NCBI GenBank assembly: GCA_015075545.1
Contig: JABTUC010000002.1
Coordinates: forward strand, 620,001-684,000
DNA from: Ideonella sp.
GTDB lineage: Bacteria; Pseudomonadota; Gammaproteobacteria; Burkholderiales; Burkholderiaceae_C
Reading direction: 5' to 3'
DNA: 64,000 bases
Numbering within the stretch: the stretch's first letter is position 1; the number at the start of each line of letters is the position of its first letter. Positions 39,927-54,591 of the stretch are shown here, piece by piece. Made by a program: the position numbers and the translations under genes. Under the pieces are notes generated by a model. The model made no database searches. It saw only the letters and a program-made list of their open reading frames with translations, and had not been told where the DNA came from.

Positions 39927-40502
39927 ATGGCCACGAGCCGCATCGACCTGACGAACCAGTTCCTGATTGCCATGCCCGGCATGGCCGACGACACGTTCGC
40001 CGGCGCGGTGGTCTACCTGTGCGAGCACACCGAGAAGGGCGCGCTCGGCTTGGTGATCAACAAGCCGATCGACATCAAGCTGCGCAATCTGTTCGAGAAG
40101 GTCGAGTTGTCGCTCGATCGCAAGGATCTGGCCGAGCAGCCGGTGTACTTCGGCGGGCCGGTGCAGACCGAGCGCGGCTTCGTGCTGCACGAGCGGCTCG
40201 GCGAAGAGAGCCCGTACACGTCGACGCTGGCGATCCCCGGCGGCCTGGAGATGACCACCAGCAAGGATGTGCTCGAGGCGATGTCGCACGGCGCCGGGCC
40301 GCGCCGCGTGCTGGTGACGCTCGGCTACAGCGGCTGGGGCGCCGGTCAGCTCGAAGAAGAGATCGGTCGCAACGGCTGGCTCACCGTCAACGCGTCGCCC
40401 GAGATCATCTTCGATACGCCGATCGAGCAGCGCTACGACAAGGCGCTGTCGCTGCTGGGCATCGACCCGCGCATGCTGAGCCAGGAGGCCGGGCACGCAT
40501 GA
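39927..40502 (+). CDS. yqgE: YqgE/AlgH family protein (UPF0301)
   Basis: 191 residues. NQFLIAMPGMADDTFAGAVV and GALGLVINKPID are the family hallmarks, with VYFGGPVQTERGF and LGYSGWGAGQLEEEI further on. The biochemical role is not known; it is usually linked to ruvX (yqgF). Stop codon overlaps the start of a 21-codon mini-ORF (ATGA). Confidence 0.95.
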   Translation: MATSRIDLTNQFLIAMPGMADDTFAGAVVYLCEHTEKGALGLVINKPIDIKLRNLFEKVELSLDRKDLAEQPVYFGGPVQTERGFVLHERLGEESPYTSTLAIPGGLEMTTSKDVLEAMSHGAGPRRVLVTLGYSGWGAGQLEEEIGRNGWLTVNASPEIIFDTPIEQRYDKALSLLGIDPRMLSQEAGHA

Positions 40503-40564
40503 ATGCGCACGGCCGCTCCGAAGCGCTCGTCCCCGAGCGCGCTGCGCGGCGGGTAGTCCAGTGA
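40499..40564 (+). repeat. Repeat copy A: 66-bp element encoding a 21-codon mini-ORF
   Basis: Starts with ATG inside the yqgE stop (ATGA) and ends in TGA that overlaps a further GTG (GTGA). The frame reads M-N-A-H-GRSEALVPE-R and ends in an Arg-rich tail. A second copy at 54284-54349 has the same length and matches 48 of 66 bases. Within it GCGCTCG-TCCC-CGAGCGC (40523-40540) is a perfect hairpin. Whether the peptide is made or the element is only a DNA repeat with an open frame is unknown. Confidence 0.7.
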
Positions 40565-40596
40565 GCGTGCGCGGCGTGCGCTGGGACCTCCGGTGA
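40561..40596 (+). other. Second mini-ORF (11 codons) bridging to ruvX
   Basis: GTG at 40561 overlaps the stop of the preceding mini-ORF and its own TGA overlaps the ruvX GTG (40593). With the 21-codon element it gives an unbroken series of 4-base overlaps from yqgE to ruvX. Expression is not shown; it may be a chance frame in GC-rich DNA. Confidence 0.4.
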
Positions 40597-41000
40597 GCAC
40601 GGCTGCGCCGCTGCGACGCCCCCGATCGTTCCTGGCCTTTGATTTCGGTGCGCGGCGCGTCGGCGTGGCGGTGGGCAACACGATGCTGAAGCAGGCGCAG
40701 CCGCTGGGTACCGTCTCGGCGCTGGGCGATGCGCGCTTCGCCGCCATCGGCCGCCTGGTTCGGGCGTGGCAACCCGATGCGCTGGTGGTCGGCGTGCCGA
40801 CGCACCCCGACGGCGCGCCGCACGACAACACGCGCCGTGCCTTGGTCTTCGCGCGCCAGTTGCACGGGCGCTTCAAGCTACCGGTGCACGAAGTGGACGA
40901 GCGGTACACGACGGCGGAGGCGCTGTCGCAGGGCGCGAGCGACGTCGACGCTGCAGCGGCGGCGCTGATCCTCGAGCAGTACTTGCGGGAATCCTCGTGA
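40593..41000 (+). CDS. ruvX: RuvX/YqgF, putative Holliday-junction resolvase or pre-16S rRNA nuclease
   Basis: 135 residues, GTG start. RNase H-like fold: FLAFDFGARRVGVAVGN with the catalytic aspartate, VVGVPTHPDGAPH, VDERYTTAEA and DAAAAALILEQYL. In E. coli the homologue matures 16S rRNA. Stop overlaps the pyrR start (GTGA). Confidence 0.93.
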   Translation: MSTAAPLRRPRSFLAFDFGARRVGVAVGNTMLKQAQPLGTVSALGDARFAAIGRLVRAWQPDALVVGVPTHPDGAPHDNTRRALVFARQLHGRFKLPVHEVDERYTTAEALSQGASDVDAAAAALILEQYLRESS

Positions 41001-53669: not shown

Positions 53670-54287
53670 ATGGACCGGCCGCGCACCCTGAGCAGCCTGC
53701 TGGGCTCCGACAACCGCCGCATGACGGTCAAGCTGGCAGTCGTCGCGGCGCTGATGTTCGGCTTCGGCTATGCGCTGGTGCCGATCTACCGCGCGGTCTG
53801 CAATGCGCTCGGCATCAACGTGCTGTCGGTGTTCGAGCGCGGCGGCCCGGTGGCGCGGCAGGTGCCGGCGAACACGCAGGTCGACCGCAGCCGCACCGTG
53901 ACCATCGAGTTCGACGCCAATTCCCGCGGGCCATGGGATTTCAAGCCCGCGCTGCACTCGATGCAGGTGCACCCGGGCGAGGTGGCCACCGTGATGTACG
54001 AGTTCCGCAACCGGCAGAACCGCACCATGGCGGCGCAGGCGATCGCCAGCTTCGCGCCGATGAACTCGGCCGCGCATTTCAACAAGCTCGAGTGCTTCTG
54101 CTTCAACGAGTACACGCTGGCGCCCGGCGAGAGCCGGCACTGGCCGGTGGTGTTCTACGTCGACAGCAAGCTGCCGAAGGACGTGACGACGATCACCCTC
54201 TCGTACACCTTCTTCGAGGTCGGCGGCAAGGTGCCGCCGGCGCCGGCGGGCCGGCAGGCCAAGGTGGCTGGCGGGGGTGCGACGTGA
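53670..54287 (+). CDS. ctaG: CtaG/Cox11, copper chaperone for CuB
   Basis: 205 residues. One N-terminal membrane helix (LAVVAALMFGFGYALVPIY) precedes a periplasmic beta-sandwich. LECFCFNEYTL carries the CFCF copper site and RAVCNALGIN near the membrane is the family block. Delivers Cu to subunit I. The stop codon overlaps the start of the 21-codon mini-ORF (GTGA). Confidence 0.95.
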   Translation: MDRPRTLSSLLGSDNRRMTVKLAVVAALMFGFGYALVPIYRAVCNALGINVLSVFERGGPVARQVPANTQVDRSRTVTIEFDANSRGPWDFKPALHSMQVHPGEVATVMYEFRNRQNRTMAAQAIASFAPMNSAAHFNKLECFCFNEYTLAPGESRHWPVVFYVDSKLPKDVTTITLSYTFFEVGGKVPPAPAGRQAKVAGGGAT

Positions 54288-54349
54288 GCGCACGCGGCCG
54301 CTGCGAAGCGCTCGCCCCGAAGCACGCAGTGCGCAGGGTGATCCCTTGA
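54284..54349 (+). repeat. Repeat copy B: 66-bp element encoding a 21-codon mini-ORF
   Basis: GTG overlaps the ctaG stop and the TGA overlaps the TTG of the DUF2970 gene (TTGA). The frame shares GR-x-EAL-x-P and the Arg-Arg-Val near the end with the copy at 40499-40564; 48 of 66 bases and 11 of 21 residues match. Mismatches fall at first, second and third codon positions as 4, 7 and 7, so conservation does not favour the protein sequence. Confidence 0.7.
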
Positions 54350-54591
54350 CCGAGAAGCCGCCGGCGCACGACGCTGCGCGGGTCACCGCGCGCAAGGGCT
54401 CGCTGCGCAACACCGCGCTCGCGGTGGCGTGGTCGTTCCTCGGCATCCGCCGGCGTGCCGACTATGCGCGCGACACCGCGCAGCTCAATCCCATTCACGT
54501 GGTGGTCGCCGGCATCGTCGGCGCTGCCGTGTTCGTGCTCGTGCTCGTGCTGCTGGTACGCTGGGTCGTCGCCAGCGGCGTCGCGACCTGA
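54346..54591 (+). CDS. DUF2970 small membrane protein
   Basis: 81 residues from a TTG start that overlaps the mini-ORF stop. A basic N-terminus with LRNTALAVAWSFLGIRRR is the DUF2970 signature, followed by one transmembrane helix (IHVVVAGIVGAAVFVLV). Function unknown; conserved between ctaG and coxC in this group. The TTG is inferred from coupling; no other start fits well. Confidence 0.78.
   Translation: MTEKPPAHDAARVTARKGSLRNTALAVAWSFLGIRRRADYARDTAQLNPIHVVVAGIVGAAVFVLVLVLLVRWVVASGVAT

Follow-up and report, generated by a model that had tools for sequence, protein, structure and literature searches.

What can enter the junction of two overlapping genes and leave the overlaps in place? A 64-kb stretch of an Ideonella sp. 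genome (contig JABTUC010000002.1; the window, meaning the whole 64,000 nt analysed) raises this question, as two similar 66-nt elements, copies A and B, lie within it at the yqgE–ruvX and cox11–DUF2970 gene junctions. Each holds a short open reading frame (a mini-ORF) of 21 codons that meets its neighbours at NTGA sequences, where N is any base. A first-pass annotation had interpreted the two as members of a family of coupling repeats, kept for structure rather than for a peptide. Its account of two 66-nt copies at these positions (Table 1), with 48 of 66 bases equal and mismatches of 4/7/7 at codon positions 1/2/3, was reproduced in full, and the sequence confirms that copy A starts in the yqgE stop and that the chain of overlaps reaches ruvX via a second mini-ORF. 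The net insertion is 62 bp; the figure of 66 nt includes the overlap at each end. We find that both copies belong to a dispersed, structured, mobile repeat family in Burkholderiales.

A dispersed and mobile repeat family

A covariance model built from 15 copies, with 150 candidates scored per genome, gave 28 matches in the window's genome at E ≤ 0.1, of which 16 were at E ≤ 1e-4, and 14, 17, 40, 56 and 82 matches in five other genomes of the genus (E ≤ 0.1). The two copies are not alone: all six genus genomes searched contain matches, the best of them with E values of about 1e-18. With up to one mismatch, the 19-nt core identifies six copies in the window's genome; with up to three, it gives five matches in the window against 1.05 expected, two of the five being exact. 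At three mismatches the core is too loose (135 matches versus 47 with the reversed control), and at one mismatch it also occurs, as judged by eye, without the remaining element at 12 loci outside the genus and at L035 and L036 inside it.

Across the bacterial family, 26 of 60 genomes had covariance-model matches at E ≤ 1e-4, and a blastn search with the consensus matched 143 of 399 genomes, spread over 67 of 141 genera. At the level of the order, 24 of 300 genomes match, many over the second hairpin alone; beyond the family, matches spanning at least 53 of the 69 query bases were found in G472, G558, G587, G604 and G629. An exact pattern scan returned at least 117 loci, 80 of which formed the first set used below and the other 37 a later check. 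Carriers among the matches listed include Rubrivivax, Leptothrix, Ideonella, Methylibium, Aquincola, Piscinibacter sakaiensis, Thiomonas and other Burkholderiales, and one Rhodanobacter record is among the pattern-scan matches listed. Plasmid and phage records gave no match to one consensus sequence at E ≤ 1e-3. At eight loci searched against Rfam at E ≤ 1 no family overlapped the element, and the two matches obtained, both in L091, fall outside it. Positions 621–801 (−) of L091 match 6S RNA at 42.4 bits, just under the family gathering score of 46.4. Among the literature titles and abstract openings listed, with subscription journals thinly covered, none described the repeat in Burkholderiales.

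Part of the element is also found by itself. A 22-nt stretch made up of the second hairpin and a Shine-Dalgarno (SD)-like sequence (query bases 34–55) occurs alone and exact in other families of the order; carriers of the solitary stretch are G599, G628, G685, G669, G677, G430 and G434, with one to three per genome among the matches listed.

We conclude that the repeat moves, because near-identical copies have unrelated flanks. The best copy pairs in the genus genomes G000, G004 and G005 are 95%, 98% and 98% identical, and in ten pairs at 97–98% identity the 80-nt flanks are 44–65% alike, compared with 46–65% for random 80-mers (95% range). One pair at 99% (L293/L298 in G005) was set aside, as its equal flanks mark a duplicated region.

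Additionally, three junctions lack the element in the nearest relative, G001, and have plain NTGA overlaps there instead. The yqgE–ruvX junction of G001 is shorter by 94 bp (62 + 32), with yqgE 98% identical, and its cox11–DUF2970 junction is shorter by exactly 62 bp, leaving a direct overlap. The junction between genes for a class IV aminotransferase and a zf-CHCC zinc-finger protein is again shorter by exactly 62 bp. G005, G002 and G003 likewise have a bare ATGA at this third junction. In G004 an independent insert of 74 bp (L406), its kinship to the repeat being judged by eye, again ends in ATGA. The bases at the insert ends are GTGA/TTGA at cox11 and ATGA/ATGA at the aminotransferase, and thus TGA, perhaps NTGA, is duplicated. 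Net element length is usually 62 bp, and often 59 or 65 bp.

Gene junctions and the mini-ORF

Codon usage, scored after training on 171 long frames, was used to judge whether the first TGA of a copy closes a gene and its last NTG opens one. The 117 loci contain 136 exact-core copies, 113 of them with flanks and 82 solitary. Two genes are joined by 49 of the 82 solitary copies, compared with 42 of the 1021 further [AG]TGAGC sites at these loci, and this excess at NTGA overlaps, together with the dispersal described above, bears out the idea of a family of coupling repeats. For the first 80 loci the corresponding counts are 36 of 55 copies, 26 of 680 control sites and 109 of 6400 random positions.

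A wider set of 275 copies combines 228 kept from 282 model matches, after removal of copies near an edge and exact duplicates, with 47 kept from the 57 of a third sample (seven near an edge and three duplicates removed); the intended exclusion of four Ideonella sp. H5_PRO6 loci took out no more copies. In this set 243 copies touch at least one gene end and 114 join two genes. The flanking genes both run in the same sense as the element at 234 copies, both in the opposite sense at 3 and in mixed senses at 38. The repeat has also spread to the junctions between two branched-chain amino acid ABC ATPases and between nitrile hydratase alpha and beta. At L281 (G000:C13:45676) the last ATG opens a formyltransferase (purN-like) gene and there is no same-sense gene upstream; the mini-ORF would act there as an upstream ORF.

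From first to last NTGA the commonest spans are 66, 63, 67, 64 and 69 nt. Within the genus, the frame was examined in 94 of 103 matches of G000, G004 and G005, themselves part of 166 model matches in these genomes, with nine tandem partners or partial matches left out; both ends are present in 80 of the 94. An open, in-phase mini-ORF ending at the last TGA is found in 34 of 35 copies that join two genes and in 24 of 45 others (p = 7e-6), and when solitary copies are taken by themselves the proportions in phase are 26 of 28 and 12 of 26 (p = 2e-4). A second sample came from outside the genus, save for locus L094, which belongs to the genus genome G004. Here 101 of 113 copies have both ends, and 54 of 55 joining copies are in phase compared with 36 of 46 others (54 of 55 and 35 of 45 without L094). 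The third sample, drawn from the 37 further loci, has 45 copies with both ends, of which 13 of 14 joining copies and 23 of 31 others are in phase (p = 0.24).

Tandem copies, as in L132 (period 60), L168 (period 62) and G225, have frames that are separate in some cases and fused in others. Outside the genus, the out-of-phase copies lie largely in arrays with a period that is a multiple of 3, and their frame thus continues into the next copy. Pairwise differences at codon positions 1/2/3 are 0.140/0.199/0.213. Among 125 distinct 66-nt copies, residues G5 (122 copies), R6 (123) and A9 (119) are kept; residues 4 (P/H) and 8 (Q/K/E) vary, and their bases covary as a pair.

Hairpins and the Shine-Dalgarno-like motif

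Within the 20 nt ahead of the last NTG an AGG is present in 192 of 204 copies, 157 of which have it at a spacing of 7–8 nt; among native coupled junctions 24 of 58 have the motif (p about 2e-17). It is also present in 44 of 46 further copies, giving 236 of 250 overall.

Two hairpins in the repeat are supported by covariation, computed on a 103-copy alignment that was itself fitted to the model. Changes on both sides occur in 14 of the 18 pairs; there are 168 covarying cells, compared with 51.5 in shuffles and 8–15 in slid structures, and the covariation score of 0.276 (0.107 when shuffled) was matched by 0 of 500 shuffles. Independently of the alignment, the closing pair of the inner hairpin, which may be G-C, C-G or T-A, is Watson-Crick in 198 of 218 distinct copies, with 98 expected. 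These covarying hairpins and the codon-position differences agree with the earlier interpretation that structure is kept rather than peptide. The particular hairpin to which the first-pass annotation drew attention in copy A is indeed perfect there, but it is distinct from the two covarying hairpins and nearly private: of 225 distinct copies just 1 has it exactly, and perfect stems of length at least 7 and at least 6 occur at its site in 6 and 65 copies, respectively.

When six sequences were folded, both hairpins formed in copy B, the consensus, L242 and L296, and hairpin 1 was absent from the folds of copy A and of a 63-nt copy. In the folds of copy B and the consensus, the first start codon falls within hairpin 1 and part of the SD motif within hairpin 2.

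Features of the window and related elements

The features of both junctions are collected in Table 1. By eye, the second mini-ORF, which follows copy A and leads to ruvX, could be another copy of the repeat in truncated form.

Table 1. Positions of the coupling repeat, its parts and its neighbours in the window, with the loci of a second palindromic repeat.
Feature	Position	Strand	Remarks
yqgE (DUF179/AlgH-like, PF02622), gene upstream of copy A	39927..40502	+	Ends inside first ATGA
Copy A of coupling repeat	40499..40564	+	ATGA...GTGA, 66 nt, 21 codons plus stop; model match 81.9 bits
Perfect hairpin GCGCTCG-TCCC-CGAGCGC, within copy A	40523..40540	+	
Second mini-ORF between copy A and ruvX	40561..40596	+	11 codons plus stop
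ruvX (PF03652), gene downstream of copy A	40593..41000	+	Begins after second mini-ORF
cox11/ctaG (PF04442), gene upstream of copy B	53670..54287	+	
Copy B of coupling repeat	54284..54349	+	GTGA...TTGA, 66 nt, 21-codon mini-ORF GTG(A) to (T)TGA
Hairpin 1, copy B	54284..54315	+	Takes in mini-ORF start codon and cox11 stop codon
Hairpin 2, copy B	54316..54338	+	3' arm is GGG of SD-like AGGG
AGG motif, copy B	54335..54337	+	8 nt ahead of TTG start of DUF2970 gene
DUF2970 gene (PF11174), downstream of copy B	54346..54591	+	TTG start within TTGA closing copy B
Second palindromic repeat	L310, L313, L384-L402; G000:C1:762496, C7:306555, C1:505114, C8:77649		

A second palindromic repeat, about 85–90 nt long and with a TGA near its start, has 19 matches in the genus. 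In 9 of the 19 places read this TGA ends a coding frame upstream, and in 4 the far end serves as the start of one. This repeat also occurs at yqgE–ruvX, where it forms an in-phase 28-codon mini-ORF in G003 and two tandem copies in G004. Additionally, longer or divergent relatives of the coupling repeat with a GGCCGCTCC / GGCCGCCCC head were found at L264, L271 (G004), L317 (G018) and L382 (G494); L317 and L382 lie, by eye, between ATGA and ATGA/GTGA. The relatives with this head suggest a wider superfamily.

Proposed mechanism

On the sequence evidence, the element is probably a non-autonomous, mobile and structured coupling repeat that coupled junctions tolerate since its mini-ORF relays ribosomes. 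It leaves a TGA (or NTGA) at each end, which preserves the stop of the upstream gene and a start for the downstream gene. The element supplies a frame of about 20–22 codons, running from the stop of the upstream gene into the start of the downstream gene, and adds an AGG SD-like motif, usually 7–8 nt ahead of the downstream start. A ribosome ending the upstream gene would restart on the mini-ORF and, while on it, open hairpin 2, whose 3' arm overlaps the SD motif; the downstream gene could then be started by the same ribosome, or a fresh start could be enabled. The SD of the element would replace the native SD left behind in the upstream gene. At the copy-A junction an AGGAGG, noted by eye, lies shortly ahead of yqgE's ATGA. 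Harmful copies at other places would be lost, giving the present distribution, and it is from this distribution of sites that we infer selection removing copies elsewhere.

In this scheme the mini-ORF is presumably translated, relaying ribosomes and maintaining coupling, the hairpins may gate the start, and some enzyme would move the element. In the review PMC12548453 translational coupling is explained either by the unfolding of a structure that covers the downstream start or by the same ribosome re-initiating, and the anatomy of the element fits both models.

Several observations weigh against the relay of ribosomes by the mini-ORF. The earlier suggestion that copies are tied to overlaps stands as regards enrichment over controls, but fewer than half of the 275 copies join two genes by the codon test. 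Beyond the genus, tandem arrays account for the phase contrast, which solitary copies lack (31 of 32 joining copies and 10 of 11 others in phase). Frame 2 and the mini-ORF frame are equally free of stops (74 of 80 each), and with a random sequence in place of the element a relay to a gene-like frame persists in 76% of trials, compared with 121 of 146 observed; this test of unbroken relay is weak and was not used as support. The folding energies of the six sequences are not below those of shuffles (z from −1.39 to 0.92), the consensus centroid is unpaired, and copy A is missing the AGG motif. We have slightly lowered our confidence in the proposed explanation because the third sample added no effect of context.

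A more demanding version makes the element a portable strict coupler, in which the start codon of the mini-ORF is hidden by hairpin 1 and the downstream SD by hairpin 2. We consider this version unlikely. If it were true, each insertion would make the downstream gene depend on translation of the upstream gene, the spread of the repeat would rewire operon dosage coupling across a bacterial family, and insertion may be aimed at termination–reinitiation sites.

Alternative explanations

A palindromic DNA repeat that is purely selfish, has a TGA-containing target and uses its hairpins for transposition alone is possible rather than probable. Copies at gene ends would then survive because they do least harm, and the open frame would be a by-product of GC richness and few founders. 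The weak conservation of the peptide agrees with such an origin, as do the 161 of 275 copies that join one gene end or none, the solitary copies outside the genus, which are in phase both when they join two genes and when they do not, and the second palindromic family, which likewise lies at TGA stops. G-U cells, furthermore, looked for as a sign of a sense-strand RNA, have no clear excess over A-C cells, with 21 versus 16 in hairpin 2, 0 versus 6 in the inner pair, and, in the structure-fitted alignment, 70 versus 39 over all pairs and 37 versus 17 once the start-codon pairs and one weak pair are excluded. A selfish repeat is, however, harder to reconcile with an open frame and phase that depend on context within the genus, or with an SD-like motif at fixed spacing. 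The sense bias also speaks against it, though an asymmetric target could yield the same bias.

REP elements with RAYT transposases are short, dispersed hairpin repeats with subfamilies. A REP element mobilised by a RAYT/Y1 transposase of the IS200/IS605 kind would share these features with the repeat described here, as well as its compensatory changes, but we regard this origin as very improbable. The Y1 domain (PF01797) was found in 0 of 6 genus genomes (68–99% complete), whereas the same search was positive in 5 of 14 controls. Across 60 family genomes, Y1 is absent from 6 of 10 with at least eight matches compared with 7 of 50 others (p = 0.004), a contrast that depends on the threshold (p = 0.21, 0.025 and 0.018 at 1, 5 and 10 matches).

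It is equally hard to credit that selection favours the 21-residue peptide itself, as a small protein recurring across operons. Although G5, R6 and A9 are well kept among the distinct 66-nt copies, codon positions 2 and 3 differ almost equally, residues 4 and 8 are variable while their bases covary, and tandem frames are both separate and fused. Chance likeness of two GC-rich intergenic stretches, in a sequence whose high GC content (70%) makes loose core matches common, is refuted by the model E values in the six genus genomes and by the three empty sites.

Comparison with known systems

Mycobacterial interspersed repetitive units (MIRUs) were reportedly described by Supply et al. in 1997, and to our knowledge they are the sole described repeat of such behaviour. 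The first-pass annotation knew of no described element that behaves in this way, but one exists: the review PMC12548453 describes MIRUs as apparently mobile, inserted at start codons and carrying an internal ORF coupled at −4 nt, a coupling that likely limits the effect on the gene. MIRUs are 40–100 bp long and occur at 41 places in one genome, according to PMC2734929. The Burkholderiales repeat is likewise a short repeat at many dispersed loci. The internal ORF that overlaps the upstream stop and the downstream start at NTGA is shared by part of its copies, as two genes are joined by 35 of 80, 55 of 101 and 14 of 45 copies with both ends in the three samples. Tandem arrays, with copy number variable at some loci, are a further likeness.

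The differences lie in the Burkholderiales host and in the SD-like motif inside the repeat. Additionally, the Burkholderiales repeat has two covarying hairpins, whereas MIRUs are not known to have dyad symmetry. Because hairpins are present, we do not class the repeat as a MIRU and call it MIRU-like only in its working.

Other known systems share single features. Rickettsia palindromic elements are palindromic and compatible with translation, as is the repeat described here, but they lie in frame inside genes and the present repeat lies between genes as a separate mini-ORF. It differs from REP elements with RAYT transposases in that no Y1 gene was found in the genus and in that the repeat has a mini-ORF, often at coding overlaps. 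Start/stop-overlap translational coupling, as presented in PMC12548453, uses the same −4 NTGA junctions, which are carried here by a mobile repeat.

Some short 'hypothetical proteins' at operon junctions in carrier genomes may be copies of the repeat and not genes. MIRU hosts are slow and hard to work with, and the Burkholderiales repeat offers a structured analogue in free-living bacteria; with its subfamilies, its empty sites and more than 200 model matches in six genomes, it would make the questions of ribosome relay and of the mobiliser testable. By analogy, the coupling repeat would be a variant of a kind known from mycobacteria, and the Burkholderiales family itself would be new.
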